Shown here piece after piece: positions 20,780-36,809 of a stretch of 64,000 bases of DNA. Source of the stretch: Arthrobacter stackebrandtii (GTDB lineage: Bacteria; Actinomycetota; Actinomycetes; Actinomycetales; Micrococcaceae); contig NZ_JAGIOI010000001.1 in the NCBI RefSeq assembly GCF_017876675.1, positions 3,596,001 through 3,660,000 on the forward strand, in the 5' to 3' direction. How positions within the stretch are numbered: the stretch's first letter is position 1; each line of letters starts with the position of its first letter. The position numbers and the translations under genes were made by a program. The notes beneath the pieces were generated by a model. It did no database searches and had not been told where the DNA came from. It saw only the letters and a program-made list of their open reading frames with translations.

Positions 20780-21187
20780 TTAGGAAACAGCAACCTTGGT
20801 GGTGCCCAAAGCGTGGGCCTTGATGGCCTCGTATTCATCGGCGTTGATGGTGCCGGCATCAAAGAGGGCCTTGGCCTTGGCAATCTCGTCGCTGGGACTT
20901 GTCTGCGCGACGGTGCGGATGTAGTCCTCCGCCGCAGTCTGGTTTGCCACTGTTTCGCGGTATCCACGTTCGGCCATGCCCTGGCCGCGGAAGATCAAGT
21001 AGACCAGTGAGGTCAGCAGCGGGATGAGGACCAGTGCCAACAGCCACACGGCCTTGAGCCAGCCATTGAGTTTACGGTCACGGAACAAGTCGGTGACGAT
21101 GGAAAATAGGGCAATGAGGTAGCCAAGGAAGACCACGGCTGAAAGAAAGACAAGAATGATGTTCCAGAATGACGACCAAAAATCCAT
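20780..21187 (-). CDS. SHOCT-domain membrane protein with phospholipase D-like N-terminal segment
   Basis: A 135-aa protein. Two hydrophobic helices (about 5-35 and 42-65) contain LNGWLKAVWLLALVLIPLLTSLVYLIFRG, typical of the PLDc_N domain. The last 30 residues form a SHOCT domain (IAKAKALFDAGTINADEYEAIKAHAL), a short oligomerisation motif. Function unknown. The start is ATG 21187 with GGAG 6 nt upstream; the frame extends to a TTG at 21199. A second SHOCT gene lies at 33879 in the same accessory block. Confidence 0.8.
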   Translation of the reverse strand: MDFWSSFWNIILVFLSAVVFLGYLIALFSIVTDLFRDRKLNGWLKAVWLLALVLIPLLTSLVYLIFRGQGMAERGYRETVANQTAAEDYIRTVAQTSPSDEIAKAKALFDAGTINADEYEAIKAHALGTTKVAVS

Positions 21188-21365
21188 GATGTACTCCAAT
21201 TAGTTTTCCGTCCGTGTCAACGGACCGGGTCCAACGTATTCAGCCTGTGCTGTAGTGACAATTATTGGTTGGCGCTTCAAGGCGTGACAGCAATCGGAGC
21301 GCAGTGTGCATATTTTCACCAATGGTTGATGACTGGGCCCGGATTCCTGCACATGCGTGCCACTT

Positions 21366-21779
21366 CTACTTGTGCGCCAGCCGCGCGCTCTTCTGCGCCG
21401 CCCTGGTGGCAAGGCGCTTCTTGCGGAAGATCACGGGCAGCAGCCAGGCACCCAGGGCGGTGGTGATCCAAACGATGACGGGTGCCAGAACCCAAGCTGT
21501 TGCGCTGGAGATCTGCAGGCCCTCGGGGAAAAGGTTTGCCACCAGGGGTGCTGTGAGTGTGGACAAGAGGCCGATGCCACCCAAGGCCACGGGGGCGTAG
21601 CGGTTGGCAATCCTGAAAGTGAACGGCGAATGGAGTGAATGGGTGGCGGCAAATACCAGGATGGCTATGAAGAAGCCACTCACCTGGAGATTGAAGTCTG
21701 CCAGTACCCATGAAACAACGAGCAAGCCCAGTGCAGCGGTGCCAACGCAAATGGCTGCACGAATGAGAAAAATGATCAT
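21366..21779 (-). CDS. Small four-helix membrane protein, function unknown
   Basis: A 137-aa very hydrophobic protein with four predicted transmembrane segments (about 3-24, 30-48, 62-84 and 92-116) and a basic C-terminal tail (FRKKRLATRAAQK). The layout recalls small holin-like four-TM families, but I do not recognise a diagnostic motif. The start was placed at ATG 21779 because the upstream part of the frame is not hydrophobic and approaches the SulP gene. It follows that gene by 86 nt on the same strand and could be its last operon member. Confidence 0.55.
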   Translation of the reverse strand: MIIFLIRAAICVGTAALGLLVVSWVLADFNLQVSGFFIAILVFAATHSLHSPFTFRIANRYAPVALGGIGLLSTLTAPLVANLFPEGLQISSATAWVLAPVIVWITTALGAWLLPVIFRKKRLATRAAQKSARLAHK

Positions 21780-21865
21780 GGGACGACCCCGGAAAATCTG
21801 CTTCGCGCTGGCTGCGGATTGCCTCGCCCGGGGGCGTGAATCATCCACTATTGGTGGTGCCGCAT

Positions 21866-23557
21866 CTAGCTGTCCAGTCCAGAGCGCCACCTTTCTGCCG
21901 CCTCCACCGCGAGTTGGAGCGCCAGTCCCACCTGTTCCTGGGCAGGGAAGACCCGATCGTTGCCCAGAATGTCCAGGCTGCCGGTTGCCACCAGCTGGCC
22001 GTGCACCTTGGGTCCAACCCCGGCCAGCATCAAGGTGCCGCCGGCCGCAGCCAGAGCCTGTGAGTATCGTTCCAGCGCCTTGATGAAGGTGGCGCCAAGT
22101 TCATCTTTTCCTCGCAGCCGAATGATGATTGCGGTTCCCTTGCACTCGGCAGGCACCTGTGGCAGCTGTTGTTCAAAAATGGGGGAGGCTGCGAAGAACA
22201 AGCTCCCGTAGGGAACCAGGATGACCAGTTGGCTGTTGGCCAGTTTCCGGGGCGGCTCAGTTTCGCGCGGCAGTGCAGTCCCGGCAGTGAATTCCCAACG
22301 CTTCACCATGATTCTGTTGGACATGCGTGCAATATGCAGGATCACGGCCAGTCCGACGCCGGACAGCACCGCATACTGCAGCGGAATGAGCAGCGTCAGC
22401 GTGAAGGTGACGGTTGCAACGGTTGCCTGGATGGGCCCGGTACGCCACACCATCAGAAAATCGTGGATCTTCAAGGTCCTGAAACCCACCAGGATCAGCA
22501 ATCCCGCCAGTGCCGGCATGGCCATGAATCCAATGGCTGGAGCGAGGGCAAAGATGCACATGGCCATGATGGCACCGGCCACCAGGTTGGCCAGTGCCGT
22601 CTTGGCGCCGGCTGCACGGACAAGGGATGTTGCGGACATGGACCCGCCAACCGGCATGCCTTGAAACAGCCCGGTGGCCAGATTGGCCACGCCCTGGCCC
22701 CGGAAGTCCGCTGAGGCGTCGGGGTAGCGCCCGTCAGGGTTGGGTACCGAGCTGCTGATGGCGGATCCCTGGACCAGCCCCACCAGTGCCAGGGCGAGCG
22801 ATGGGACAATGAGGGCCGGGACCAACTCCAAGGTGGGAAGCGCCAGGGCCGGGAGCGAGTTGGGCACCTGGGCAACATCGCCCAGGAGTGCCACAGTGGC
22901 CTCCACAGCGGAGAAGTTCAACAGTGCAGCCAGTCCGGAGCCGGCAATGACGGCCACCACCATGGACATGGCGCCGAGGCGCGTGCGTTCCAGCAGCAGA
23001 ATCAGCCCCACCGTCACCAGGCCCACGGCCAGGGCGGCAGGATTGACCTCGAACACGTGCAGCACGGTGTCCGCGGCCCGCAGGATGCGGTTGGCGCCCT
23101 GGCCGTCGTAGCCCGTCAGGTTGTCCAGTTGGCCCAGGATGATGTTGATGGCGACGGCATTGACAAACCCCATCAGCACCGCCGTGGGAATGAACCGCAC
23201 CAGGGAGCCCAACTTGGCGAGCCCCAGCGCCAACATGATCAGGCCCGTGAGCAATGCCAGCGTGGCCAGGGCCGCGGCAGATTGCCGGGCGTCTTGGGTC
23301 TGCGGGACATCGGAGATGATGACGGACATGGCCCCGGTGGCCTGAACACTCATGAACGCTGAACCCGTGGCGAGGGCGCCTCCCACGGTGCCCAGCAGGT
23401 AGCCGTAGAGCCCGTGCACCGGGTTGACCCCGGCGAGAAGGCCTGCCGCCAAACCGTCCGGGACACTCTCAACGCCAAGAACCAGGCCTGCCTTCACATC
23501 CGCCTTGACCGTTCGCCGGTCGCCAAAACGCGCCATGTATTGACGCAAGGGAGCCAT
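21866..23557 (-). CDS. SulP-family anion transporter with STAS domain (second copy)
   Basis: A 563-aa permease for inorganic anions such as sulfate or bicarbonate. The first segments carry VLGVESVPDGLAAGLLAGVNPVHGLYG. The substrate-site region GMPVGGSMSATSLVRAAGAKT lies near residue 305. A C-terminal STAS domain (about 440-560) contains ILVPYGSLFFAA and AIIIRLRGKDELGATFI. It begins 2 nt after the stop of the GAP gene, so the sulP-GAP-sulP set is one operon. The two SulP proteins here are diverged paralogues rather than a recent duplication. Confidence 0.88.
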   Translation of the reverse strand: MAPLRQYMARFGDRRTVKADVKAGLVLGVESVPDGLAAGLLAGVNPVHGLYGYLLGTVGGALATGSAFMSVQATGAMSVIISDVPQTQDARQSAAALATLALLTGLIMLALGLAKLGSLVRFIPTAVLMGFVNAVAINIILGQLDNLTGYDGQGANRILRAADTVLHVFEVNPAALAVGLVTVGLILLLERTRLGAMSMVVAVIAGSGLAALLNFSAVEATVALLGDVAQVPNSLPALALPTLELVPALIVPSLALALVGLVQGSAISSSVPNPDGRYPDASADFRGQGVANLATGLFQGMPVGGSMSATSLVRAAGAKTALANLVAGAIMAMCIFALAPAIGFMAMPALAGLLILVGFRTLKIHDFLMVWRTGPIQATVATVTFTLTLLIPLQYAVLSGVGLAVILHIARMSNRIMVKRWEFTAGTALPRETEPPRKLANSQLVILVPYGSLFFAASPIFEQQLPQVPAECKGTAIIIRLRGKDELGATFIKALERYSQALAAAGGTLMLAGVGPKVHGQLVATGSLDILGNDRVFPAQEQVGLALQLAVEAAERWRSGLDS

Positions 23558-23559
23558 GT

Positions 23560-24282
23560 TCAGAACCACGGAATCGCCGCCAGGGACTTCTGGATTTGGC
23601 CAAAGGACAGCAGGGACAGGAACACGGTGCTGAGCGTGCCGTTGTTCCTTGCAATCCAGGCACGCAGCGTCTCCAACAAGGGGCCGGCTTTTTCGCCCTT
23701 GGCCAGTGTCAGCAGCACCGGGACCAACATGGGAACAATGCCCAACGCGATGAAGACGATCATGAACGTCGAGGACGTTCCAACCGACAGCGCCGCCAGC
23801 CTGATGTCCAGCGCCGCAATGAGTGCACAGGAGAGGTTGACCGGGTTCAAAAGGAAGATCCCCAGCCCCAGGGCATAGGAGCGGGGCCCCGTGAAGGAAG
23901 CCACGGCCTGCAGCCAGCCCGGCAGCTGGGGTGCCGCGGCCGCCACCTCTTCCGGCGTAGTGGCGCCGGCCATGGCGGAGAGCTTGGCACGGGAGCGCCG
24001 GTAGGTGAAAACGGCCCCGGCGCCCACCAGCAGGCCCGCAACCAGGCGCAGGGGAGGAACCCACTGAGGGGGGTCAAGCTCCGGAGCAACGTGGAGCCAG
24101 CCAAACAACCAGTAGCCGCCACCTACGGCAATCATGACCGCGCACGCCCAGCCGGCCAGGTACAGCACACCGTTCACACGGGCGTTTTTTGAGAGCAGCA
24201 CCGCGATCAGCGCCATCACGGCCAGGGGGCTGGCGACAATCCCCAAGAGGGCCGGGAGTAACTCCAAGGAGAGATCAATCAT
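23560..24282 (-). CDS. GAP/Sap-family membrane protein
   Basis: A 240-aa protein with six hydrophobic segments in the LysE-like fold of the GAP (Sap, sulfolipid-addressing) family. Visible markers are LGIVASPLAVMALIAVLLS at the N-terminus, LGLGIFLLNPVNLSCALIAALD in the middle, and the C-terminal WIARNNGTLSTVFLSLLSFGQI. Mycobacterial members help export glycolipids; the substrate here is unknown. Its start overlaps the upstream SulP stop (ATGA). Confidence 0.78.
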   Translation of the reverse strand: MIDLSLELLPALLGIVASPLAVMALIAVLLSKNARVNGVLYLAGWACAVMIAVGGGYWLFGWLHVAPELDPPQWVPPLRLVAGLLVGAGAVFTYRRSRAKLSAMAGATTPEEVAAAAPQLPGWLQAVASFTGPRSYALGLGIFLLNPVNLSCALIAALDIRLAALSVGTSSTFMIVFIALGIVPMLVPVLLTLAKGEKAGPLLETLRAWIARNNGTLSTVFLSLLSFGQIQKSLAAIPWF

Positions 24283-25958
24283 GGCTTTTCTGCTCCGTTC
24301 GGCAGGTCAGTGGAAACAGGGCCGGTCCGGGCAAGAACTGCCACGGCCTCGCGGTTTGTGGGAAATTCCCGGGTGCCCGCCAACAGCCCAAATCCATTGA
24401 GCTGCCTGCGCAGGCCGGGCCGCATCCGGGTGTAGGCGAAGGCAATCCCTTGCGTCCGGAGCCCGGCGATGACGCCCTGCAGGGCCTCTGCGCCGGTCAC
24501 ATCGATGTCGCTGACGGCCTCAACATCAAGCACGACGACGTCCAGCTCACCGCCGGCAGACTGCACCATCCCGTTGATGCGGTCCGCAAGAACCGAGCCA
24601 TTGGCGAAAAAGATGGGTGCCGCGATCCGCACCACGGCCACGCCCGGTGCGGTGAGGCGGGCGCCGTCGTTGCTTTCCAGCAGGGACACCGTGGGGTCAT
24701 CCCCGCCCGAGAGGACATCGATGGCCGGATTGGCGGCCCTGCGTGCCAGGTTCACCAGCGACAGGACAAAGGCCAGGAAGAGCCCGCCCAGCGGCCCCAC
24801 CAGCAGCACACCGCCAAAACAAGCCGCGCCAATGGCGAACTCCACACGGGAAAGGTGCCAGAGCTCGCGCAACTCCTCCAGTCCCAACAGCTTGAACACT
24901 GCAACGGCAACCACTGCGCCAATGGCAGGGGAGGGAATCTGCGCCAGCAGGGCCGTGCCGAAGAGCAGCAGCAGGGTGGTTCCTGCCGCCAAGACAACAC
25001 TGGGCAGCTGGGTGCGGGAACCCGTCTGGTCCACGGCCGCCGTGCGGGAGGTGGAGGAACCCACCGCGAATGAAGAGGACAGGCCGGCAGCCACATTGGC
25101 GGCGCCAAAGGCGAACAAGTCCTGGTTGGGCAAGGTGGCATAACCGTTCTTTTCGCCGTATGCACGGATCACCAGAAGCCCCTCGGCAACCGTGACCATG
25201 GTGAGCGCCAGTGCGGAGGGAATCAGGGAGATCCAACCGGCCAGGTCCAGGCGGGGGAGCTGGAACTGCGGCGGCCCGGCCGGCACTTCACCAAGCACGG
25301 ACACGCCGCGGTCCTCCAGGGCAAAGGCCACCGTGGCAACAGTCGCCAGGACCAGGACGGCCAGGGCCCACGGAAAGGACGGAAGAAACCTGCGGCCCAG
25401 CAGCAGCACCAGCAGGGACCCGGCACTGAGCGCGACAGCAAAGATGTTCAATCCGCCCAGACCAGTGAGCAGCTCCCACAACTTCTCCAGGAATTCCCCG
25501 CCGGAATTGATCTTGACGCCCAACATCTTGGCGGCCTGGCTGATCATGATCTCCAAGGCAAGGCCACCCACAAAACCCACCAAGATGGGCTTGGAGAGAA
25601 AATTGGCAATAAAGCCCAGCTTCAGGAACGATGCGGCAAAGAAGAGCAACCCGCTCAGGATCGCCTGGGCCCCGGCCATGAGCACAAAGTTTTCCGGAGC
25701 CACGCCCAGCCCCACCAGCGAGGAAAACACCAGGGCCGCGGCGGCTGCGTCGGGGGAGGCCACAACCTGCCGGGAAGAAACGAGCACGGCATAGACCAAG
25801 GTTGGGACGATCAGGGCGTAGAGTCCGGCACTGGCCGGAAGCCCGGCGATCTGGGCATAGCCAATGTTCAGTGGGACCGAGATGGCCAGAAGGGTGATCC
25901 CGGCCGTCGCCTCCCGCGCGACGTTGTCCCGCGTAAGGCCTGTGAATGGTCGCTGCAT
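24279..25958 (-). CDS. SulP-family anion transporter with STAS domain (first copy)
   Basis: A 559-aa permease. The SulP N-terminal block carries ISVPLNIGYAQIAGLPASAGLYA near residue 29. The signature near GLSSSFAVGSSTSRTAAVDQTGSRTQL is the anion-site helix, and LQGVIAGLRTQGIAFAYTRMRP lies in the C-terminal STAS domain, which also holds VVVLDVEAVSDIDVTGAEAL. First gene of a leftward operon with the GAP protein and the second SulP. Its start lies 117 nt from the palindromic operator at 26075-26096. Sulfate, bicarbonate or another anion are all possible substrates. Confidence 0.9.
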   Translation of the reverse strand: MQRPFTGLTRDNVAREATAGITLLAISVPLNIGYAQIAGLPASAGLYALIVPTLVYAVLVSSRQVVASPDAAAAALVFSSLVGLGVAPENFVLMAGAQAILSGLLFFAASFLKLGFIANFLSKPILVGFVGGLALEIMISQAAKMLGVKINSGGEFLEKLWELLTGLGGLNIFAVALSAGSLLVLLLGRRFLPSFPWALAVLVLATVATVAFALEDRGVSVLGEVPAGPPQFQLPRLDLAGWISLIPSALALTMVTVAEGLLVIRAYGEKNGYATLPNQDLFAFGAANVAAGLSSSFAVGSSTSRTAAVDQTGSRTQLPSVVLAAGTTLLLLFGTALLAQIPSPAIGAVVAVAVFKLLGLEELRELWHLSRVEFAIGAACFGGVLLVGPLGGLFLAFVLSLVNLARRAANPAIDVLSGGDDPTVSLLESNDGARLTAPGVAVVRIAAPIFFANGSVLADRINGMVQSAGGELDVVVLDVEAVSDIDVTGAEALQGVIAGLRTQGIAFAYTRMRPGLRRQLNGFGLLAGTREFPTNREAVAVLARTGPVSTDLPNGAEKP

Positions 25959-26074: not shown

Positions 26075-26097
26075 CAAATCATCAGTTGCTGATGATT
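26075..26097. promoter_or_regulatory. Shared palindromic operator, copy 1
   Basis: CAAATCATCA-N5-TGATGAT at 26075-26096. The arms AATCATCAG (26077-26085) and CTGATGATT (26089-26097) are perfect inverted repeats. The same CAAATCATCA-N5-TGATGAT occurs at 32385-32406, also between divergent genes. Candidate regulon operator. Confidence 0.6.
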
Positions 26098-26153
26098 GAT
26101 GTTTGGTGAAGCCAGAGCAGGATGGATAGGGAAATCCGCAAACGAGGTACAAC

Positions 26154-27128
26154 ATGAACGGAAGGAAACCTGCCATGCAGGAATCCCCGGCAGACTGGGT
26201 AAGGATTCCCCCTGGCCGGTTTCTCATGGGGTCATGGGACTTTTACCCGGATGAACGGCCCCAGCACCAGCGCGCCGTCGAGGCCTTTGACATGTCCCGG
26301 ACACCTGTCACGAACGCCCAATATGCGGCGTTTGCAGCTGCCACCGGCTATGTGACCCTGGCAGAGCGGGGATTGGACCAGCAGGATTTCCCGCAGCGGG
26401 AAATCCAGGAGCTGGCTCCCGGATCATTGGTGTTCACCCCACCCGACGGCCCGGTGGACCTGAGGGACTGGCGAAGCTGGTGGTCCTGGGTGCCCGGCGC
26501 CAGCTGGCGGCACCCCCTGGGGCCCGGCAGCGACCTGTTCGGGCTGGAGGAGCACCCGGTAGTCCACATCGCCTACCCCGATGCCCTGGCCTACGCGCAG
26601 TGGATCGGGGCCCGGCTGCCCACCGAAGCGGAGTACGAGTGGGCGGCCAGCGGCGGGCACACCCCCCTGCCCTACAGCTGGGGGCGGGAGCGTGATCCGG
26701 ACGGGGTGGCGTTGGCCAATACCTGGCACGGCCGGTTCCCCTACCTGAACTCGAGCTCCGACGGATGGTTTGGCACGTCACCCGTGGGGATGTTTCCGCC
26801 CAACGGATTCGAGCTGTACGACAGCATTGGCAACGTCTGGGAATGGACCGGCGATCTGTACACCGGCTCCCATGCGGGCGCCGCCGGCGTTCTCCCCTAC
26901 GAATCGCCCCTGGCGCTGCCGTGCCGGGACGGCGGCGCAGAAGGTGCCGACGGCATCCCGCGACGCGTCCTCAAGGGTGGGTCGTATCTTTCCGCACCCG
27001 AATACAGCCTCAGTTACCGGCCGGCGGCTCGCATGGGGAGGGCCGAGGACTCCGCCTCATCGGATACAGGCTTCCGCTGTGTCCGCACGGCAGGAGCCGG
27101 CCCAGACGTCGGGGCCACCACGGACTAA
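26154..27128 (+). CDS. FGE/SUMF1-fold protein lacking the catalytic cysteines
   Basis: A 324-aa protein of the formylglycine-generating-enzyme/sulfatase-modifying-factor fold. Family motifs: IPPGRFLMGS near residue 18, PVTNAQYAAFAAATGY near 51, RLPTEAEYEWAASGG near 156, NVWEWTGDLY near 227, and the C-terminal GGSYLSAPEYSLSYRPAAR and GFRCVR. In true FGE the C-terminal loop reads GGSYxCxxxYC and its two cysteines bind copper and the substrate; here both positions are Ser, so sulfatase activation is unlikely. No sulfatase lies in the window. ATG 26154 has GAGG upstream. It precedes the LAL regulator by 60 nt. Confidence 0.85.
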   Translation: MNGRKPAMQESPADWVRIPPGRFLMGSWDFYPDERPQHQRAVEAFDMSRTPVTNAQYAAFAAATGYVTLAERGLDQQDFPQREIQELAPGSLVFTPPDGPVDLRDWRSWWSWVPGASWRHPLGPGSDLFGLEEHPVVHIAYPDALAYAQWIGARLPTEAEYEWAASGGHTPLPYSWGRERDPDGVALANTWHGRFPYLNSSSDGWFGTSPVGMFPPNGFELYDSIGNVWEWTGDLYTGSHAGAAGVLPYESPLALPCRDGGAEGADGIPRRVLKGGSYLSAPEYSLSYRPAARMGRAEDSASSDTGFRCVRTAGAGPDVGATTD

Positions 27129-27176
27129 CGGTTGCCCTTGGTGCCATCCGCTCCCTGAAAGGGGCGCGGGTGACGG

Positions 27177-27182
27177 TAGAAT
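27177..27182 (+). promoter_or_regulatory. -10 element of a probable leaderless promoter (LAL regulator)
   Basis: TAGAAT, then 6 nt, then ATG 27189. No Shine-Dalgarno is present. Confidence 0.5.
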
Positions 27183-27188
27183 CCCTGC

Positions 27189-29801
27189 ATGGGGACACGA
27201 GAAATTGCACAATGGAAACCGCTGCCCTGGTTTCTGGTATCGCCGCCGAAAAATGGTGGCCCGGCACGGTCAAGGGAACGGCTGCTCCGGCACATTGACG
27301 AGTTGGTGGACCTGTACCCACTGACATTGCTGTCCGCTCCATCCGGCTACGCAAAAACCGCTTTGCTGTCCACCTGGGCCGTCGCCGAGGGACGGCGTGT
27401 TGCCTGGCTCAGCCTGAGCCGGCACATCGGCGAAAATGAAGAGTCCCTTCTGGGCGGGATCATCAGTTCCCTTCATCGCCTGGCACCCCGGCTCGGCGCG
27501 AACGATGCACACCTGCTGTCCCGAATATTTCCCGACGAACAAGGAACGCAGGCAACCCTTGAGCTAGTGGCCAGCCGTCTGCTGGAGCTGGAAGAGCCAA
27601 TTGTCATGATTGTGGACGACGCGCACCTGGTCGGTTCCACCCTGTCCAGCGGCTTGCTGCAGACGCTCACCGACCACTGCCAAAACCGCCTCCGCTTTGT
27701 GCTGGCGGGCGCCGCTGAGCTGAACCAGTCCTTTAACCGAATGCTGGCGCGTGGAACTGCCACCCGCTTGGGGCCGGCGGAATTGTCCCTGACGGTGGCA
27801 GAGATCGTGGAGGACTTCCACCAGGTGGGCATTGCGCTGTCTGAGGAGGCCGCGCAGTCACTCCACAATGAAAACGGTGGCTGGCCCATAGCAGTCCAGC
27901 TGGAAATTGTTGCTCGCTCGTCAGGTTCCGGCGGTACCGGGCCCGTTGGCCATTCCGTGCTGACCGAATTCGTGGCGACGTCCATCCTGGGCCAAATGAG
28001 GCCGGAATTAGCTGAATTTGTCCTGGCCGGCACAACCTGCCTGCGGCTGGACGCGGCATTGGCACAGCTCCTGACGGGGGCGGGAAACAGCTCGGCACTG
28101 CTGGAAGAATGCGCCAACCAAGGAATCTTCCTTGACCGCTATGAGAGCGGGGAGCACCGGACCGTCTACAAGTGGCGCCAGGAATTTTCCACCCAATGCC
28201 AGCAGATCCTGGACCGCACGGACAGCGGCCGGCGGCGCCGGCTCAATGCCATTGCAGCCCAGGCCCTGGCTCGGTTGTTCCCCACGGAAGCCATGTCCCA
28301 CGCACTACTGGCCGGCGATTCCGAGGCGCTGATGGGTATTCTGCGGGAGCAATGGCTGCGGATCGTGATTGAATCCGGTGCCGCAGTGCTCAACGACATA
28401 TTGTTGCAGCTCCCCGGTGACATTGCCTTGAACCCCGAAATCCTGCTGATACGCTCGGCATGCCTTGACCTCCTGGGCGATGCTCCGGGTTCCACCCTTT
28501 TGCGTTTGCAGGCCCGCAGAGCATTGTCCGCCATGGACGTGGTGCCGCACCAAGTCCGCGCCACCTTGGCCTTTGCCACGCTTTTCACAGAGAACGACGC
28601 CGGTGCACTCGCCATCGCCGTGGACTCGGCCCGGGAGCATAGCGCCGAGCTGCAGGGCAATCCGGTGACAAATGCCTTCGCCATGTTCTTCCTGGGGTGG
28701 ACGGAACTGCGGCTTCGGCGCAATCCGGCCGCGGCCGTGCGCATGCTCCGTTCAGCCCTGGATCAGGCCGAGAATTCGGGGCTGCACACCCTCGCCCAAC
28801 GAACCCGTGCCAACCTTATGCTGGCGCTGAGCTTCGGCGGGTACTTTTCCTCGGCACTTGCGCTCATGGCCAAGTATGAGGTGCCCGGACAGGATGCCAC
28901 AGTTCTGGAATGGAACCACTATGACGGCGCCATTGAGCACTTTGCCCGCGGTATCGTCGATTTTTGGCAAGGAAGGCTGCCCGAAGCGAACCAGACCTTC
29001 CTGGACATGGTGGCGCAGGGTGGGCACCAGGCCTCCTACACGGCCCTGGCCCGGGTTTATCTGGCGTTCTGTGCCGCCGACACAGGGGATGCACGGGATA
29101 TCCGCGCAGCCGAATCCCGCCTGGATGGCGTTAGCCAGTCCCCCCAGCATGGGGTTCCATGGCCCACCTATGGGCTCATTGCCGCGGCCAGCTTGCGTGC
29201 TGCCTCGGGGGAGCCCGAGGCAGCATTTGAGATGGTCCGGGACATACGCGATGTTGCCCATGTCCCGGTGTGCCTGGCACTTGCCGCGGAACTCGCCCGT
29301 CTCGCGGGGCGCCCGGCCGATGCGCTTCAGATGCTTGGCGGTATTTCTGCAACCGGCATGACATCTTATGTATCCGTCAGTGCCCTCATTACCTCCGCCA
29401 TTATTTCAAGGGGGAAAGGGGAGGGTGATGCTGCCCACCGCCAGCTGGAAAGGGCCCTGGACCTTGCCGTGAAGGAATCCATTGTGCGGCCCTTCGCCGG
29501 AGGCGATGACGCCCTGGTCCAGCTGCTTACCGAACACGCGGCTTGGGGAACGGCACATGAAGGATTCCTCGCCGCAAGGCTTGCCCACGGCCCTGGCAAC
29601 ATCTCCAGGCAAGCCATGCTGGGAACGCAGCTTTCCAAGCGGGAGCAGGAGGTCTTTGGCTTCCTGCGGACCACCATGACGGCCGAGGAAATTGCGGCCG
29701 CGCTATTTGTCTCCGTCAACACAGTGCGGACCCACCAGCGCTCCATCTACCGAAAACTGGGTGTGAGCACACGCAGGGACGCCATTCGTCTTCGCCCCTG
29801 A
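27189..29801 (+). CDS. Large ATP-binding LuxR-family (LAL/MalT-like) regulator
   Basis: An 870-aa regulator. An N-terminal STAND-type ATPase carries a P-loop at SAPSGYAKTALLS near residue 49, where the usual GYGKT is GYAKT, and Walker B IVMIVDDAHLV near 138. A long helical TPR-like region (about 330-780) is the probable inducer sensor. The C-terminal LuxR helix-turn-helix is LSKREQEVFGFL through VNTVRTHQRSIYRKLGV near 815-862. It lacks a receiver domain. It probably has its own leaderless promoter. As the only regulator inside the accessory block it is the leading candidate to bind the two shared palindromes. It converges on the HerA-like gene with 20 nt between stops. Confidence 0.93.
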   Translation: MGTREIAQWKPLPWFLVSPPKNGGPARSRERLLRHIDELVDLYPLTLLSAPSGYAKTALLSTWAVAEGRRVAWLSLSRHIGENEESLLGGIISSLHRLAPRLGANDAHLLSRIFPDEQGTQATLELVASRLLELEEPIVMIVDDAHLVGSTLSSGLLQTLTDHCQNRLRFVLAGAAELNQSFNRMLARGTATRLGPAELSLTVAEIVEDFHQVGIALSEEAAQSLHNENGGWPIAVQLEIVARSSGSGGTGPVGHSVLTEFVATSILGQMRPELAEFVLAGTTCLRLDAALAQLLTGAGNSSALLEECANQGIFLDRYESGEHRTVYKWRQEFSTQCQQILDRTDSGRRRRLNAIAAQALARLFPTEAMSHALLAGDSEALMGILREQWLRIVIESGAAVLNDILLQLPGDIALNPEILLIRSACLDLLGDAPGSTLLRLQARRALSAMDVVPHQVRATLAFATLFTENDAGALAIAVDSAREHSAELQGNPVTNAFAMFFLGWTELRLRRNPAAAVRMLRSALDQAENSGLHTLAQRTRANLMLALSFGGYFSSALALMAKYEVPGQDATVLEWNHYDGAIEHFARGIVDFWQGRLPEANQTFLDMVAQGGHQASYTALARVYLAFCAADTGDARDIRAAESRLDGVSQSPQHGVPWPTYGLIAAASLRAASGEPEAAFEMVRDIRDVAHVPVCLALAAELARLAGRPADALQMLGGISATGMTSYVSVSALITSAIISRGKGEGDAAHRQLERALDLAVKESIVRPFAGGDDALVQLLTEHAAWGTAHEGFLAARLAHGPGNISRQAMLGTQLSKREQEVFGFLRTTMTAEEIAAALFVSVNTVRTHQRSIYRKLGVSTRRDAIRLRP

Positions 29802-29821
29802 GCGTGCCCTCGCCCTGCAGT

Positions 29822-30913
29822 TCAGGCGCCCGCCGTCATGGGTACCGAGACGTCAGAGCCACCCTCGGCCGTCACCCGGTCCCGCATCTGCACCAGGGTG
29901 GGGGCGCCGGCAAAACCGCCCGCCATCAGCGCCTGGCCCAGTCCGAAGTCCTTGGCCTGCGCCAGCATTTGCGCGGGAACGAAGCCGAACACTTCGCCCA
30001 GCTCCGCCAGGTCACGGGGTGCATTGATGCGCATGAGACCCAGGTTGTCGCACTGGGAGAGCACATTGGGGTGGATCTTGGTGGGCCGCTGGGTTGAAAG
30101 AAACAGCCACAGGCCAAACTTTCTGCCCTCTGCCGCGATCTGGACCAATTGTTCCGTCAGGGCCTTCTCCACGGCAGTTGCCGGGTGCGGGGAGCAGATG
30201 TTGTGAGCCTCATCAATCACAATGAGGATGGGCTTGCGGTCATGGCGGGTGGCCCACAGGTGTTCCAGCACGGCCAAGGCAGCCACCTTGGGTGCCGCCG
30301 GGGCAGTGAATCCGCCCAGGTCCATGACCGTGACCCGTGGTCTGGTGTCCACCACGTCGTTGACGGAATCCCCGCCGTACGACCACAGCTCCCAGTCCAG
30401 CGGGCGAAGGTTTTCCACCCGGTTGGCCAGCTTGACCTGGGCCGGCTTGCCGGAGTCGCGGAATTCCTGCAGCATGGTTGCGGCATCGAAGGTGGTGGGG
30501 TTCAGGTCGAAGTGCAACAGCTCGTTGTACTCGTCGGCGTCGGCAATGGGGTCCAGGCTGAGCACTGCAGCCTTGGACTCGACCGACAGGTCGGTGTACC
30601 GGGCATGAAGCCGCTCGCCGTCGGGGTTGGTGGAGTTGAGGATCCTCATGGGGATGGCCGAAAGACGCTGCGCCTCCTCGGCATTGGCGCCCGGGCGGGT
30701 CTCGTTCAACCGGACAAAGTCTGCATTGGGGTCCAGGATGAGCAGCGGCAGCTCTGTGTGCAGGAGCAGCTGTTCCAGGACCACACCCAGGGCGTAGGTT
30801 TTGCCGGAACCGCTTTGGCCGCACCAAAAGGTGTGGCGGTTGAATTTGTCCGCACGGATTTGCGCGGCCTCGCCCGGGGCGTCGATGCTGCTTCCGATTC
30901 TCAGTGTTTCCAT
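29822..30913 (-). CDS. HerA/DUF87-like ATPase
   Basis: A 363-aa P-loop ATPase of the HerA/FtsK-VirD4 superfamily. Walker A is WCGQSGSGKTYALG near residue 31-44, LLILDPNADFVRL follows near 57, Walker B is ILIVIDEAHNIC near 234, the arginine/sensor region is LSTQRPTKIHPNVLSQCDNLGLMRI near 276, and a C-terminal GFAGAPTLVQMRDRV closes the fold. Such proteins are DNA- or protein-translocating motors, often with nuclease partners, but no nuclease is next to it. Start is ATG 30913, 4 nt after the stop of the upstream DUF1254 gene with AGGAC upstream, so the two are coupled. Confidence 0.85.
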   Translation of the reverse strand: METLRIGSSIDAPGEAAQIRADKFNRHTFWCGQSGSGKTYALGVVLEQLLLHTELPLLILDPNADFVRLNETRPGANAEEAQRLSAIPMRILNSTNPDGERLHARYTDLSVESKAAVLSLDPIADADEYNELLHFDLNPTTFDAATMLQEFRDSGKPAQVKLANRVENLRPLDWELWSYGGDSVNDVVDTRPRVTVMDLGGFTAPAAPKVAALAVLEHLWATRHDRKPILIVIDEAHNICSPHPATAVEKALTEQLVQIAAEGRKFGLWLFLSTQRPTKIHPNVLSQCDNLGLMRINAPRDLAELGEVFGFVPAQMLAQAKDFGLGQALMAGGFAGAPTLVQMRDRVTAEGGSDVSVPMTAGA

Positions 30914-30917
30914 GGAG

Positions 30918-32270
30918 TTAGTCCTTTGCAATTCGGTGGATGGCGGGGATTTGGTAGCCGCCGTCGATCACGGCAGCATCGGGCACATACATGCGCAGGA
31001 GTGGACGGAAATCACCGTCGGGGGCCGGGAGCCAGTTGGCCAGTTTCGCCGGATCACCCGGCTTGCTTGCCCCGAGGTGGATTTGCAGTGAACCGTCCTG
31101 CCCGTAAACCAGGCCAGGGGTTCGGTCGCCCACGGAGTAGCGGTCAAGCGGGTTCTCCACAAGGAAGAAGTCGGGGACCGAGTACATGGTCAGGGACCAG
31201 AAGGCACCCACCGGCGGCGTTGGATCAAAGGTCAGGACGTAGTCGTTTTCGCCGTTGAGCTGCTTGCCGTCGGAGTCGACATAAACGGCCGCGTAGGCTG
31301 CCTCGTAGGCGTGGTTTCCCCAGAGCCCGGCAATCGCGGCTGCAGCGCGCAGGAGGGGGCGTTGCTCAGGATCCATGGCGGTGTAGAGCGGCTCATCAAG
31401 CGTTCCAACCTCAAAAAAGTCCAGGTTGTAGTCAAAGGAGTGGTACGCCAACTGCCAGCCATTGACCATGGGAACCCCGCCGCCGCGCAGGAATTCCAGG
31501 ACCATGCCGTGGGCGCCCTGCAGTGCCTGGGCCAATTCACCGATGGTCCCCTCATCCAGCCCCGCATAGGGGCTCGTTCCCTGCTCCGTGATGCCCAGCG
31601 GTGCCAGGGCTTCCAATGCCGGAAGGTCCCGCCCGGCCGGCGGAAAAGCCTGGGACCACAACCGCAGCTTTTCCAGAAACAGCAGGCTCTCCGGAACCCC
31701 GGGGGCGGGTGTTGGGATGCCCAAGGTGGGGGATGCGCCGTCGAGCGCGGAGAGCTTCATGGCGTCCTGGAGGCGGTGGATCCCGGGAAGGTCGGCCTCG
31801 CCGTCGCACGCCCACCGGCCCACAATCGAGGCGACAACTGTGGGGGACTGAATGAGCGTGGCATCTTCGGGCACTTGGCCTGTCCAAGCTGGCGGGACGA
31901 TCAGGAATTTCCCCGCCCCGGTACCGGTGGCGCGCTGGCCGACATACGCAAAGTTGTTGGTCCAGGCATCCACAAATTGCAACACATAGTAGCGTCCTGC
32001 AGTGTCGGGAACCTCCAGCAGCAGCGGGCCGGAGCTCAGGTCCAGCTGGGCCATGGAGTAGAGGGTGTCGTTGTTGATGGAGACAAAGGTGTCCGCAGGG
32101 CCGGCCAGCGTGCGCGCATGGCTGAATGAATTGAAGGGAGCGGCCGGGTTGGCACCCACACCGCTTTCAACGTAGCGGAGCACCTGGTCAAGGTTGAACA
32201 CCAGGGGAATGCCCAGGGCGTAGGCGTCTTGAACCGCCGAGGAATCAAAAGAGTACATGGGGATTTTCAT
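30918..32270 (-). CDS. DUF1254/DUF1214 protein (450 aa)
   Basis: An N-terminal DUF1254 domain (about 10-150) shows the typical NSFSHARTLAGPADTFVSINNDTLYSMAQLDLSSGPLLLEVPD pattern and RYYVLQFVDAWTNNFAYVG. A C-terminal DUF1214 domain (about 320-445) shows DYVLTFDPTPPVGAFWSLTMYS, DRYSVGDRTPGL and NWLPAPDGDFRPLLRMYVP. The biochemical function of the pair is unknown. No signal peptide is visible, so it is probably cytoplasmic. Its start lies 115 nt from the palindromic operator at 32385-32406. It heads an operon with the HerA-like ATPase. Confidence 0.88.
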   Translation of the reverse strand: MKIPMYSFDSSAVQDAYALGIPLVFNLDQVLRYVESGVGANPAAPFNSFSHARTLAGPADTFVSINNDTLYSMAQLDLSSGPLLLEVPDTAGRYYVLQFVDAWTNNFAYVGQRATGTGAGKFLIVPPAWTGQVPEDATLIQSPTVVASIVGRWACDGEADLPGIHRLQDAMKLSALDGASPTLGIPTPAPGVPESLLFLEKLRLWSQAFPPAGRDLPALEALAPLGITEQGTSPYAGLDEGTIGELAQALQGAHGMVLEFLRGGGVPMVNGWQLAYHSFDYNLDFFEVGTLDEPLYTAMDPEQRPLLRAAAAIAGLWGNHAYEAAYAAVYVDSDGKQLNGENDYVLTFDPTPPVGAFWSLTMYSVPDFFLVENPLDRYSVGDRTPGLVYGQDGSLQIHLGASKPGDPAKLANWLPAPDGDFRPLLRMYVPDAAVIDGGYQIPAIHRIAKD

Positions 32271-32384
32271 CCTTAACTTTTGTAGGGCGCGGGAATGATC
32301 GGTGCGATGTTTCCTTTTCAGAAGAGTTCCACAAGCCGGTGCCCATGGCCACGAATTGGATCACGTTGGGGGCCGTCAGGGGCC

Positions 32385-32406
32385 CAAATCATCAATCAAT
32401 GATGAT
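32385..32406. promoter_or_regulatory. Shared palindromic operator, copy 2
   Basis: CAAATCATCA-N5-TGATGAT, identical outside the 5-nt centre to 26075-26096. It stands between the divergent DUF1254 genes, 71 nt before the rightward start and 115 nt before the leftward start. The rest of the 206-nt gap shows nothing distinctive beyond promoters. Confidence 0.6.
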
Positions 32407-32476: not shown

Positions 32477-33436
32477 ATGACTGAAATTCATGTCAACGCA
32501 GCAAACTTTGCCAGGGCAGAATCCGACCGCATGTTTGCGGCGATCGTGCACCAGGCCGGCGGGACGGGCCAATGGAGCCACGGCAAGGTTCCCACTCCCG
32601 TCGACGACCAGCCCATCATCCGGATGAACCGGGACACCCTCTACAGCGCCGCTGTCGTGGACATCTCAGCCGGTGCCGACTTGACCATTCCCGACGTCGG
32701 GAACCGCTACGTTTCCGTCATGGTGGTCAACCAGGACCACTACATCAACCGTGTGTTCCACACCCCCGGCAGCTACCGCCTGGACGTGGAGGAGTTTGGC
32801 ACCGGCCATGTCATGGTGGCCGCACGCATCCTTGTCGACCCGGAAAACCCTGAGGACGTGGCACAGGTCAACGCACTGCAGGACCAATTGGTGCTGCAGA
32901 GCGCAAGCAACCGGCCGTTTGTGCTGGAACCCTATGACGAGGAAGCCGTCACCGCGACCAGGGCGGCACTTTTGGAGCTCGCCAAGGGCCTCTCCGGCCT
33001 GGACGGCTGCTTTGGGAAGAAGCAGGACGTTGATCCCATCCGCCACCTGATCGGCACCGCGGCCGGATGGGGCGGGCTGCCTGATGCGGAGGCCAGCTAC
33101 ATCAACGTGACACCCGGCCTGCCCGCAGGACGTTACACCCTGGACATTGCCGATGTTCCGGTGGACGGATTCTGGTCCATCTCGCTGTACAACGCAGAAG
33201 GCTACTTCGAGGAAAACCCGGCCGGCGCCTACAACGTCAACAACATCACGGGAACCCCCAACGCAGATGGCAGCGTGACCGTGATCTTTGGCGGGGAGCC
33301 CGGCGAGCCCAATGCACTACCCATCATGGACGGCTGGAACTACCTGGTCCGCCTGTACCGCCCCCGTGCCGAGGTCCTCGACGGCGGTTGGCAGTTCCCC
33401 TCCATCAACAGCAAAGTGACGGTCAACCATGGCTGA
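32477..33436 (+). CDS. DUF1254/DUF1214 protein, short form (319 aa)
   Basis: A shorter member of the same family as the genes at 30918 and 35478. It begins at about the point where the others have reached the NRDTLYSAAVVDISAGADLTIPD motif, and lacks the longer N-terminal lead-in and most of the linker. The C-terminal DUF1214 part is complete: LDIADVPVDGFWSISLYNAEGYF near residue 217 and MDGWNYLVRLYRPRAEVLDGGWQFP near 286. Function unknown. First gene of a rightward operon; its stop overlaps the DUF6325 gene by 8 nt. Confidence 0.85.
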   Translation: MTEIHVNAANFARAESDRMFAAIVHQAGGTGQWSHGKVPTPVDDQPIIRMNRDTLYSAAVVDISAGADLTIPDVGNRYVSVMVVNQDHYINRVFHTPGSYRLDVEEFGTGHVMVAARILVDPENPEDVAQVNALQDQLVLQSASNRPFVLEPYDEEAVTATRAALLELAKGLSGLDGCFGKKQDVDPIRHLIGTAAGWGGLPDAEASYINVTPGLPAGRYTLDIADVPVDGFWSISLYNAEGYFEENPAGAYNVNNITGTPNADGSVTVIFGGEPGEPNALPIMDGWNYLVRLYRPRAEVLDGGWQFPSINSKVTVNHG

Positions 33437-33866
33437 GCAAGAGAATTTTGACTACGGACCCGTGGAGATCTTCACCGTGGAATTCCCCGGTGAGGCCCCC
33501 AGCCCCGGCGTGCTGGAATCACTGGCAAGGCTGGAATCCACCGGCACGGTCCGGCTGCTGGACATGGTGCTGGCCGGTCGGGCGGCGGACGGGTCCTTGA
33601 GGATTTCAGAATTGACCAAGGACGACGCCGCGGCGGCAGGCCTGGCGCCGGCACTGCCAGGACTCATTGGTGAGGAAGACGCCACAGAAGCGGCGCAGGG
33701 CATGCCCGAGGGGACTGGCGTGGCGCTTGTGGCACTGGAACTGAGCTGGGCCACTGAGCTTGCCGGCAACGTGGCTGCCGCCAACGGAACAGTCACGGAC
33801 TCCATCCGGATTCCGGCACCGATTGTCAATGGTTTCATCAACGAATTCGGCCAGGCCGACGCATAG
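33429..33866 (+). CDS. DUF6325 family protein
   Basis: A 145-aa soluble acidic protein. GPVEIFTVEFPGEAP at the start, the central VRLLDMVLAGRAADGSLRISEL, and the ALVALELSWATELAG motif resemble DUF6325 proteins, which are often placed beside SHOCT proteins in actinobacteria and resemble stress-related DUF1269 proteins. No enzymatic motif is visible. ATG 33429 lies inside the end of the preceding gene. Confidence 0.7.
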   Translation: MAEQENFDYGPVEIFTVEFPGEAPSPGVLESLARLESTGTVRLLDMVLAGRAADGSLRISELTKDDAAAAGLAPALPGLIGEEDATEAAQGMPEGTGVALVALELSWATELAGNVAAANGTVTDSIRIPAPIVNGFINEFGQADA

Positions 33867-33878
33867 AAAGGAGGGGCC

Positions 33879-34244
33879 ATGCCCTTCATCGGAAGAGTTG
33901 GAAGGCCCGGCCTGCTGGGGCTGGCTGCGCGGACAGCAGTTGTGGCCGGGACCGCATCGGCCGTGGGCGGTGCCGTAACCAGACGCCAGAACGAACGGGC
34001 TGCGGCCTCATACGCCCAGGACTATCCGCCGGCACCGCCTGCCCCGGCCCCGGTCCAGGCTCCCCCCGCGGAGCCAGCCCCGGCACCCGCACACGCTCCC
34101 CCCGCGGAGCCGGCCCCGGCACCCGCACAAGCCGCCCCCGTTGACATCGTGGGCAAGCTGACGCAGTTGGGGGAGCTCAAGCAACAAGGCCTCTTGGATG
34201 AGGCCGAGTTTGAACGCGCCAAGGCCCAATTGCTGGGCGGCTAA
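33879..34244 (+). CDS. SHOCT-domain protein with Pro/Ala repeat linker
   Basis: A 121-aa protein. An N-terminal hydrophobic segment (about 11-32, LLGLAARTAVVAGTASAVGGAV) is followed by a basic patch, then a repetitive Pro/Ala linker in which APPAEPAPAPA occurs twice at about residues 59-82, and a C-terminal SHOCT domain (KLTQLGELKQQGLLDEAEFERAKAQLL). The linker is encoded by near-identical direct DNA repeats (about 34066-34125). Follows DUF6325 by 12 nt, with AAAGGAGG upstream. Function unknown. Confidence 0.8.
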   Translation: MPFIGRVGRPGLLGLAARTAVVAGTASAVGGAVTRRQNERAAASYAQDYPPAPPAPAPVQAPPAEPAPAPAHAPPAEPAPAPAQAAPVDIVGKLTQLGELKQQGLLDEAEFERAKAQLLGG

Positions 34245-34301: not shown

Positions 34302-34718
34302 ATGCGTAAAGCAATCCAGATCATCACAGCCGTTTCCCTTGCCGCAAGCCTGGGCCTGTCCCTGGGCGCGTGCAGCAGCTCACCCTCGGAGAACAAGGCA
34401 GCCGCCTGCCAGGCCAACACGGCCTTTGTGGAAGCCGTAACCGGTGTCCAGAACTCCCTGGACTCCTCCTCCACCCTGGCCGAAATCAAGGCTGCCCGGG
34501 ACACGGTCAAAACTGCCTACACGGAGCTGGACAAGCAGCTGGACAAGGTCGGTTCAGACCAGGTGAAGGCCCTGGAAACGGCCTGGAAGGACTTGGACGA
34601 TGCCGTGTCCGGACTCGATGACAACCTCACGGTGCCTGAAGCGAAGGTTGCGCTGGAAGACAGCCTGGCCCAGGTGAAGAACGCCCAGGACAAGATTGAA
34701 TCCGGCCTGACTTGCTAA
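34302..34718 (+). CDS. Small secreted lipoprotein
   Basis: A 138-aa protein with a signal peptide (positive MRKAIQ, hydrophobic core to about residue 20) and a lipobox LGAC, giving a lipid-anchored Cys at position 24. The mature part is helical and likely coiled-coil (ARDTVKTAYTELDKQLDKVGSDQ) and ends in Cys. I do not recognise a named family. ATG 34302 has AGGAG 7 nt upstream. Its place in a run of membrane and stress-type genes suggests an envelope role. Confidence 0.75.
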   Translation: MRKAIQIITAVSLAASLGLSLGACSSSPSENKAAACQANTAFVEAVTGVQNSLDSSSTLAEIKAARDTVKTAYTELDKQLDKVGSDQVKALETAWKDLDDAVSGLDDNLTVPEAKVALEDSLAQVKNAQDKIESGLTC

Positions 34719-34755: not shown

Positions 34756-35430
34756 ATGAATGGAGCATTGGGGGAGATCCTCCCCTTTGCCGTCACCATT
34801 GCCATCAGCCCGGTGCCGATCATCGCCGCGATCCTGATGCTGATGTCGCCGCGGCCCAGGCCGCTCGGACTGGGGTTTCTGACAGGCTGGGTGGCGGGAA
34901 TTGCCGTTGCTGTTGGAGTTTTCACCCTGCTGGCGGGCGTCATCCCCGAAAAGGCTGACGATCCCGGTCCGCAGCCCATCGTGGGAAGCACTCAGCTGCT
35001 CTTTGGCCTGGCGTTGTTGTTCCTTGCGCTCAAGCAGTGGCGTTCGCGGCCCAAACCAGGTGAGGTGGCGCAGCTGCCCAAGTGGATGGCCGCCATCGAC
35101 ACGATGAAACCGGGTGCGGCACTTGGGCTGGGGTTCTTGCTGGCGGCCGTGAACCCGAAGAACCTGCTGATGGCTGCCGCCGCCGGTGTCTCCATCGGTC
35201 ACGCAACACTGGGCACAGGGCCTGCGCTCGTGGCGGTTCTGGCATTCATAGTCATTGCTGCGCTCAGTGTGCTGGCACCCGTGGTCATATACCTGGCGGC
35301 CCCGGCGAAAGCCACCGGGATGCTGGACCACGTCCGGATCTGGCTCACGGCCAACAACGCCACCATCATGATGGTTGTCATGCTGGTCCTCGGTGCGCAG
35401 TTGCTCGGCAAGGGGATCGGCAGCTTCTGA
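34756..35430 (+). CDS. GAP/Sap-family membrane protein (second)
   Basis: A 224-aa protein with six hydrophobic segments. Family markers: VTIAISPVPIIAAILMLMSPRPRPLGLGFLTGW, the mid-protein LGLGFLLAAVNPKNLLMAAAAG, and the C-terminal WLTANNATIMMVVMLVLGAQLLGKGI. It is a paralogue of the protein at 23560, so both arms of the block carry one. Exported substrate unknown. It sits 37 nt after the lipoprotein gene and 47 nt before the third DUF1254 gene. Confidence 0.8.
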   Translation: MNGALGEILPFAVTIAISPVPIIAAILMLMSPRPRPLGLGFLTGWVAGIAVAVGVFTLLAGVIPEKADDPGPQPIVGSTQLLFGLALLFLALKQWRSRPKPGEVAQLPKWMAAIDTMKPGAALGLGFLLAAVNPKNLLMAAAAGVSIGHATLGTGPALVAVLAFIVIAALSVLAPVVIYLAAPAKATGMLDHVRIWLTANNATIMMVVMLVLGAQLLGKGIGSF

Positions 35431-35477: not shown

Positions 35478-36809
35478 ATGGAAAATCACCAACTGAAGCA
35501 ACTCGCTGTTGATGCGTACATGTTCGCGTATCCGATGGTCCTGATGGAGCTCACCCGGCTGCAGGCCTGCAACGTTCCGGACGCCAATACCTTGCCCCTG
35601 CGTGCCCCGGTGAACCAGTTCGCCCACGGGCGCAGCTATCCGGCGGCCGACGCGCGGGAAGTTGTCCGCTTCAACTTCGACACCTTGTACTCCATTGCGT
35701 GGCTGGACCTTCGGGAGGAGCCCATGATTGTCAGTGTCCCGGAAGGTGACGGGCGCTATTACCTGACTCCCATGTACGACATGTGGACGGACATCTTTGC
35801 TGTTCCGGGGACAAGGACCACGCAGGGCGCGGCCCGTGACTTCCTGATGGCTGCACCGGGTTGGGACGGTGACGCGCCGGAGGGGACCACCGTTGTCCAT
35901 GCACCGACTGCCGCCATGTGGATTGTTGGCCGGATCCAGACGAACGGCCCGCAGGACTACGCAAACGTGCACACGTTGCAGGACGGCTACCGGATCACAC
36001 CGTTGAGCAAATGGGGGCAGGACTACACCCCGCCTTCGGGCCTGCCCGTTGACCCGGCAATTGACAATGTGACGCCTCCCCTGGACCAGGTCAATGCCCT
36101 GGACCCATTTGAGTTCTTTGGCCTGTTTGCCCAGCTGCTGAAGTCCCAACCTGCGCACCCCAACGATTTCCCGATTCTGCACCGAATGGAAGCGCTGGGC
36201 TTCACTCCGGGGCAGGACTTCACCGCAGATTCACTCAGTGCAGAGGTCCGGGAAGCAATTGCGGCTTCACTTGACGCAGCCTTGGCGGACCTAGTTTCCA
36301 TTGTGGTCTCGGGCAGTGTGGGAATCGTAAAGAATGGCTGGAACTGGGATCAGGAGTTTGGCACCTACGGCACCAACTACCGCCTGCGCGCCATGGTGGC
36401 CATGGCTGGTTTGGGTGCCAACCTGGCTGACGATGCGATCTACCCGAATGCCATCACCGATGCGGACGGGAATCCTTTCACCGGCGAGAACAACTACGTC
36501 CTGCACTTTTCCCACGACAACTTGCCCAGTGTTGACGCGTTCTGGTCATTGACCATGTATGACGACGTGGGATTCCAGATCCCGAATATTTTGGACCGCT
36601 TTGCCATTGGCGACCGCGATCCCTTGGAGTACAACCATGACGGCTCGCTGGACCTCTACATCCAGACCGTCTCTCCAGGACCTGAGAAGGAAAGCAATTG
36701 GCTGCCGGCCCCGCAGGGTTCCTTTGCACCCATGCTGCGGCTCTACTCACCAACCGCCGGGACGCTCCGTGGAGAGTTTGTTCCCCCGGCCGTGGTCAAA
36801 GTGAGCTAA
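35478..36809 (+). CDS. DUF1254/DUF1214 protein (443 aa)
   Basis: Third family member. The N-terminal AYMFAYPMVLMELTR is the classic start of DUF1254; RAPVNQFAHGRSYPAADAREVVRFNFDTLYSIAWLDL and RYYLTPMYDMWTDIF follow. The C-terminal DUF1214 part has NNYVLHFSHDNLPSVDAFWSLTMYD and NWLPAPQGSFAPMLRLYSP. No signal peptide is seen. Function unknown. Last gene of the rightward operon, closed by the strong hairpin at 36833-36877. GAGAGGGAAG precedes the ATG. Confidence 0.88.
   Translation: MENHQLKQLAVDAYMFAYPMVLMELTRLQACNVPDANTLPLRAPVNQFAHGRSYPAADAREVVRFNFDTLYSIAWLDLREEPMIVSVPEGDGRYYLTPMYDMWTDIFAVPGTRTTQGAARDFLMAAPGWDGDAPEGTTVVHAPTAAMWIVGRIQTNGPQDYANVHTLQDGYRITPLSKWGQDYTPPSGLPVDPAIDNVTPPLDQVNALDPFEFFGLFAQLLKSQPAHPNDFPILHRMEALGFTPGQDFTADSLSAEVREAIAASLDAALADLVSIVVSGSVGIVKNGWNWDQEFGTYGTNYRLRAMVAMAGLGANLADDAIYPNAITDADGNPFTGENNYVLHFSHDNLPSVDAFWSLTMYDDVGFQIPNILDRFAIGDRDPLEYNHDGSLDLYIQTVSPGPEKESNWLPAPQGSFAPMLRLYSPTAGTLRGEFVPPAVVKVS

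Follow-up and report, generated by a model that had tools for sequence, protein, structure and literature searches.

Which protein reads a palindrome that stands, in two exact copies, between the divergent genes of a single block? The palindrome ATCATCA-N5-TGATGAT lies in the window, the 64-kb stretch of the Arthrobacter stackebrandtii genome analysed here (contig NZ_JAGIOI010000001.1, positions 3,596,001 to 3,660,000), at CAAATCATCAGTTGCTGATGATTG, which starts at 26075, and at CAAATCATCAATCAATGATGATGA, which starts at 32385; the N5 cores span 26078-26096 and 32388-32406. The original prediction had these positions right, as well as the leftward gene starts at 25958 and 32270 and their distances of 117 and 115 nt, and it proposed that the two copies tie the flanking operons into one regulon with the LAL regulator encoded at 27189-29801 as binder. 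To our knowledge, few LAL operators have been described. The predicted regulon is supported by conserved operator positions, by enrichment of a 5-nt spacer and by co-occurrence with the LAL, and we put the probability that the palindrome is the operator of this MalT-like LAL at roughly 0.8, judging from sequence.

The genome, searched as one contig of 4.43 Mb, contained two exact matches to ATCATCA-N5-TGATGAT, none with one mismatch and nine with two. Both exact matches are in the block, and exact copies are thus not scattered. Seven of the nine two-mismatch matches are an identical 19-mer inside a repeated, transposase-bearing element. Its copies were found in L003, L004, L006, L007, L009 and L010 (L and G numbers are our labels for loci and genomes) and at genome position 3492200; the element is at least 1.6 kb long, carries a transposase-like gene and is 97-99% identical over 1.6 kb between copies (six of the seven were fetched, five compared with L003). 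Among 197 genomes of the family, an exact copy of the palindrome occurs in seven, namely our own, that of Glutamicibacter protophormiae (G023), which has a homologous block, and five others that hold it outside any such block. From this background of 5/195 genomes, two exact copies in one genome would arise by chance with p ~3e-4, a value that ignores the 6.3-kb proximity and the intergenic placement of both copies.

The original prediction saw no third copy, which is true of exact copies and not of degenerate ones. A symmetric matrix that was seeded with the window consensus, and whose training loci all came from other genera, scored four windows of the 64 kb highest, at 26077 (28.9), 32387 (27.7), 21314 (21.7) and 21839 (19.8), with the next at 13.0, and all four lie inside the block. 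The two strong sites are O1 (26077..26097), in the intergenic region of the SulP1 and FGE-like genes, with perfect 9-nt arms around a 3-nt centre, and O2 (32388..32406), between two DUF1254 genes. The block's left end holds the two weaker sites: O3 (TTCACCAATGGTTGATGAC, 21315..21333) precedes a SHOCT/PLDc_N gene and O4 (ATCATCCACTATTGGTGGT, 21840..21858) precedes a gene for a 137-aa protein. Counting up to three mismatches, four matches compare with 0.75 expected and were reached in 3 of 100 shuffles, which is not decisive alone. We accept O3 and O4 because the matrix came from other genera, because O3 has a counterpart in Glutamicibacter, TTCACCAATTGGTGATGAG, and because both are unchanged in the related locus L081, where O1 and O2 are unchanged as well and the surrounding stretches are 84-86% identical. 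The block thus holds at least four predicted operators, not two.

Are these positions kept in other genomes that carry the block? The closest relative of the LAL is that of Arthrobacter sp. HY1533 (95% identical). Within the genus, the LAL occurs in 2 of 23 genomes, our own and G953, whose match has the same position as that of HY1533; the block is thus accessory. The promoter comparison revealed that the sites are kept in L081 and in Glutamicibacter. In G. protophormiae (L030/L084), the block lacks SulP1 and the first DUF1254 gene and its LAL is ~43% identical, and both strong operator positions are retained as ATCATCAGCAGTTGATGAT and ATCACCAACATTTGATGAT (O2 with one mismatch) though the flanking genes differ. 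Different genera thus keep the operator at corresponding promoters. In Leucobacter, Microbacterium and other actinobacterial relatives, the same gene families are preceded by degenerate forms of the site, though some loci have none. In 13 close loci, allowing up to three mismatches, 18 intergenic matches were found in 13.8 kb compared to six in 220 kb of genes, spread over 7 of the 13 loci. The true half-site ranked first of 210 permutations (18, next 5), and a spacer of 5 was the best of spacers 0-11 (18); spacers of 8 and 2 gave 13 and 10, since ATCATCA is itself repetitive. A LAL relative (35% identical) was also seen on a 592-kb plasmid of Rhodococcus qingshengii (L080), together with two DUF1254 genes, a SulP gene and two TCACCC-N5-GGGTGA sites (11916 and 18724); the module thus also travels on plasmids.

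To ask how far the site extends beyond this block, we scanned genomes for LAL relatives and kept 80 loci; statistics were calculated on 79, with L081 (LAL 95% identical) dropped. The general form TCAYCM-N5-KGRTGA occurs in 60 of the 79 loci, with 101 intergenic sites in 233 kb compared to 30 genic sites in 1354 kb. Every other spacer from 2 to 9 gave 0-2 intergenic sites, and the true pattern ranked first of 360 permutations, the runners-up (77 and 76) having the same letters. When all arrangements with spacers 0-30 were compared, half-sites that face each other in inverted order across 5 nt stood alone. A motif-free search of all 6-mer inverted repeats with spacers 2-10, run on 65 distant loci (L138 and L147 left out), placed TCACCC-N5-GGGTGA first, with 32 intergenic and 15 genic sites in 26 of the 65 loci. 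In 16 further loci, chosen after the pattern had been fixed and with four duplicates removed, there were 22 intergenic and 8 genic sites in 12 loci, and other spacers gave 0 or 1; for most of these loci, short stretches flanking the LAL gene had already been tallied with this pattern. The predicted operator type is therefore family-wide and not peculiar to the block in the window. Chance palindromes, terminators or repeats might be invoked, as ~5 of 195 family genomes lack the block and yet hold an exact copy, weak matches could occur in 5-10% of intervals of the AT-richer intergenic DNA, and the two-mismatch matches in the genome are mostly one repeated element. Against this stand the same places across genera, the fixed spacer, the permutation controls and the replication in further loci; moreover, terminators are not expected where the strong sites lie, between divergent starts. 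We judge this explanation to be already refuted.

Sampling loci by their LAL makes the LAL common by construction, and we therefore sampled by target genes, counting a site as present with at most one mismatch; for the HerA-like genes, the site had to lie within 350 nt upstream and a LAL was counted as present at E 1e-25. HerA-like genes had a site in 6 of 11 genomes with the LAL compared to 0 of 10 without (p 0.0085 by genome; 21 of the 22 non-own genomes, G410 left out). In five of the six positives (G372, G459, G255, G208 and G356) the LAL is unlinked, on another contig or hundreds of kb away. As this association is weaker by genus, a sample of SHOCT/PLDc_N genes was added, comprising the best 30 loci of 76 SHOCT-bearing genomes, one of them our own. 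Among the 29 non-own loci, 9 of 11 LAL-bearing genomes have a site upstream of the gene, compared to 1 of 18 genomes without a LAL (p 5e-5 by genome; p 0.03 by genus, 6/8 compared to 1/7). Most of the nine positives carry one mismatch, and control spacers of 2-9 other than 5 gave matches in 0-3 of the best 30 loci. In genus g52, the sole LAL-bearing genome has the site and the five genomes without the LAL have none; in g59, the LAL-bearing genome has no SHOCT site, like the other g59 genomes. Site presence in these two samples thus depends on the LAL in the genome, and we regard the LAL as very likely, from these comparisons, to be the binder of the palindrome.

Several observations weigh against this assignment. 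Five family genomes without a LAL at E 1e-25 each hold one exact ATCATCA-N5-TGATGAT, four of the five intergenic. These copies are at L032:9990, L033:10014, L034:10004, L035:8369 and L036:9421, none near block genes. G080, also without the LAL, has a SHOCT gene with a one-mismatch site. The site is missing from 19 of the 79 LAL loci, from 4 of the 16 further loci and from 6 of the 13 close loci. As many of the loci come from closely related Microbacterium, the counts are not independent events. The inverted arrangement at spacer 0 also gives an excess in the 79 loci (15 intergenic compared to 7 genic pairs). By genus, the HerA-like contrast falls to 3/8 compared to 0/8 (p 0.10), weak because four of the six positives belong to one genus. 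The operator before the LAL gene itself, seen in 6 of 90 LAL-like gene calls, is not enriched.

Another GerE-type regulator, encoded elsewhere, might own the site, with the LAL merely nearby. Similar sites do occur beside LALs of other subfamilies (L068 and L077) and in L202, a congener that lacks this LAL. BldM, a response regulator rather than a LAL, has the same LuxR/NarL-type helix-turn-helix (HTH) fold. Its group I operator in Streptomyces, TCACcCgnncGgGTGA (PMC4125116), shares the half-site TCACCC/GGGTGA with the relatives of the LAL that are classed below, by their recognition helix, as K-type. However, the BldM spacer is 4 in that operator and 5 in the LAL family; a BldM-type TCACCC-N4-GGGTGA was tried and rejected, with one intergenic spacer-4 site in the 79 loci. 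In addition, in both samples drawn by target gene rather than by LAL, the site goes with the LAL, unlinked LALs included. We therefore consider a different owner unlikely. One further site, TTCATCCGCTGCGGGTGAT at L161:1501-1519 (genome 4120012-4120030), lies between divergent Ion_trans_2 ion-channel and membrane-protein genes and is K-type-like, as defined below; the congener L202 has a similar site, at L202:2436, on the other side of the channel homologue. As that congener lacks the LAL, we do not claim a fifth operator at 4120012.

What kind of protein is the LAL, and does it suit the palindrome? It is 870 aa long, which fits the LAL size of ~900 aa. Its C-terminus is a GerE domain (PF00196, E 1e-13, residues 814-868), for which GerE and other HTH structures were matched, and its N-terminus is a STAND-type ATPase with a Walker A motif; P51, G53, K56 and D143 are invariant in 15 relatives, and Pfam AAA_22 was found only below the cut-off. 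Foldseek on the AlphaFold model (mean pLDDT 85.5) gave MalT (8bob_C) as the nearest PDB match and STAND proteins as well. The LAL thus has the architecture of MalT of the Escherichia coli maltose regulon (STAND ATPase, repeat domain, GerE HTH), but it is not MalT proper, scoring 155.5 bits on the MalT equivalog model with its cut-off of 537. The half-site of the family, GGRTGA, is the same as the MalT box, quoted as GGA[TG]GA in PMC9628970. MalT sites are described as direct repeats (PMC6099782), whereas in the LAL family the half-sites face each other across a constant 5 nt and the targets are not maltose genes. Direct repeats were rejected as the main arrangement, the best of them (spacer 14) giving 9 intergenic and 0 genic pairs compared to 101 intergenic inverted pairs at spacer 5. 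Two other actinobacterial LALs have sites that were studied: SCO6993 binds palindromes and represses its targets, and no consensus emerged for its sites (PMC9628970); TpdR is an activator for which a 15-nt direct repeat was proposed as the site (PMC6099782). As presented there, neither resembles TCAYCM-N5-KGRTGA. In the open-licence PMC literature searched, the operator and regulon are not named, and publication elsewhere is possible.

The recognition helix reads NTVRTHQR in the window LAL and NTVKTHQR in most relatives. In the R-type loci (n=14), half-site base 6 is A in 26 of 40 half-sites, and in the K-type loci (n=63) it is C in 160 and A in 9 of 176. A Fisher test on these counts takes every half-site to be independent and was therefore set aside. 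A tree of 74 rows needs only two R/K changes, one in a clade of 14, which fits, and one in L157, which has an R-type helix and keeps TCACCC, a further point on the contrary side. L150, having no usable frame, was left out of both comparison and tree, and seven short rows were left out of the tree. The 16 further loci added no R-type row; 11 have the K helix, and in the rest there was no pattern match or the helix was not seen. The R/K change together with the half-site shift would fit contact by the LAL. As nearly all R rows belong to a single clade, however, and L157 is contrary, we do not claim this covariation as proof of binding.

How might the LAL act on these promoters? In the model that we infer, a LAL multimer activated by ATP and a ligand would use two of its HTH domains to read two half-sites facing across 5 nt, TGATGA in the window and GGRTGA in most relatives, and multimerisation would be controlled by ATP and a ligand, as in MalT and as suggested by the family. 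A weak -10-like signal is seen 31-44 nt from the operator centre, at 37-42 nt in 21% of 117 sequences compared to 3-15% in other windows. This would put the operator ~43-55 nt before the transcription start. Such a distance is usual for LuxR-type activators, which favours activation at the divergent promoters, most likely with the LAL bound a little ahead of the -10 region. The signal is weak, as offset 86 scores 0.74 compared to 0.80 for offset 31. Repression by the LAL would suit the divergent arrangement too and has a precedent in SCO6993 (PMC9628970), but MalT and TpdR are activators (PMC9628970 and PMC6099782), and, given the weak -10-like signal, the core promoter would begin only beyond the operator. 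Thus the LAL is probably an activator, and its acting as a repressor is doubtful.

Which genes would come under this control? Through O1-O4, the LAL would act jointly on its own gene and the FGE-like gene, on the SulP-SfLAP-SulP genes, on the DUF1254-HerA pair and the DUF1254-DUF6325-SHOCT-SfLAP-DUF1254 run, and on two small genes, that for SHOCT/PLDc_N and that for the 137-aa protein. Leftward of O1 on the minus strand are SulP1 (24279..25958; Sulfate_transp and STAS), an SfLAP (GAP family) protein (23560..24282) and SulP2 (21866..23536), in one predicted operon. Beyond these lie, on the same strand, the 137-aa gene behind O4 (21366..21779; no Pfam or NCBIfam match) and the SHOCT/PLDc_N gene behind O3 (20780..21187). 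A second SHOCT/PLDc_N copy, 62% identical, is at 2025337-2025732 in the genome, outside the block. Rightward of O1 on the plus strand are the FGE-like gene (26154..27128; FGE-sulfatase domain), in whose block no sulfatase is annotated, and the LAL gene (27189..29801), with the codon of R847 at 29727-29729. Left of O2, a DUF1254/DUF1214 gene (30918..32270, minus) forms a predicted operon with the gene for a HerA-like (DUF87) ATPase of 363 aa (29822..30913, minus). Within the order, the latter protein is present in 23 of 297 genomes; its surroundings vary, and the block is often missing. Right of O2 on the plus strand, a predicted operon comprises DUF1254/DUF1214 (32477..33436), DUF6325 (33429..33866), SHOCT (33879..34244), a 138-aa protein with no Pfam match (34302..34718), SfLAP of the GAP family (34756..35430) and, as last gene, a third DUF1254/DUF1214 protein (35478..36809), missing there in L081. 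For DUF6325, nothing was found in the open-licence PMC literature.

Across the loci, 157 operator-gene pairs were tallied, with duplicates removed from the pairs but not from the gene totals. An operator lies upstream of SHOCT/PLDc_N in 25 of 32 cases, DUF1254 in 12/32, HerA-like in 5/15, AI-2E in 8/28, DUF6325 in 15/54 and SulP in 14/55, compared to the lower rate of 60/962 for other genes; for SfLAP (6/54), FGE (3/14) and the LAL gene (6/90), enrichment is absent or unclear. These target families are mostly membrane or transport proteins, which suggests, as a guess, a role of the regulon in ion or envelope homeostasis. Tentatively, we propose as one joint claim that the LAL family may govern the uncharacterised genes for envelope and transport proteins that recur with it (SHOCT/PLDc_N, DUF6325, DUF1254, SulP, AI-2E and HerA-like) through MalT boxes facing across exactly 5 nt, and that the K-to-R change in the window's clade (R847) may have replaced C by A at the end of the half-site, splitting its regulon from that of its relatives. 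The operator links a number of unnamed gene families found repeatedly with the LAL, and it poses a small question of protein-DNA specificity, helix R or K and half-site base A or C. Being fixed and easily scanned, it would allow the candidate targets of the LAL family to be listed in any actinobacterial genome.

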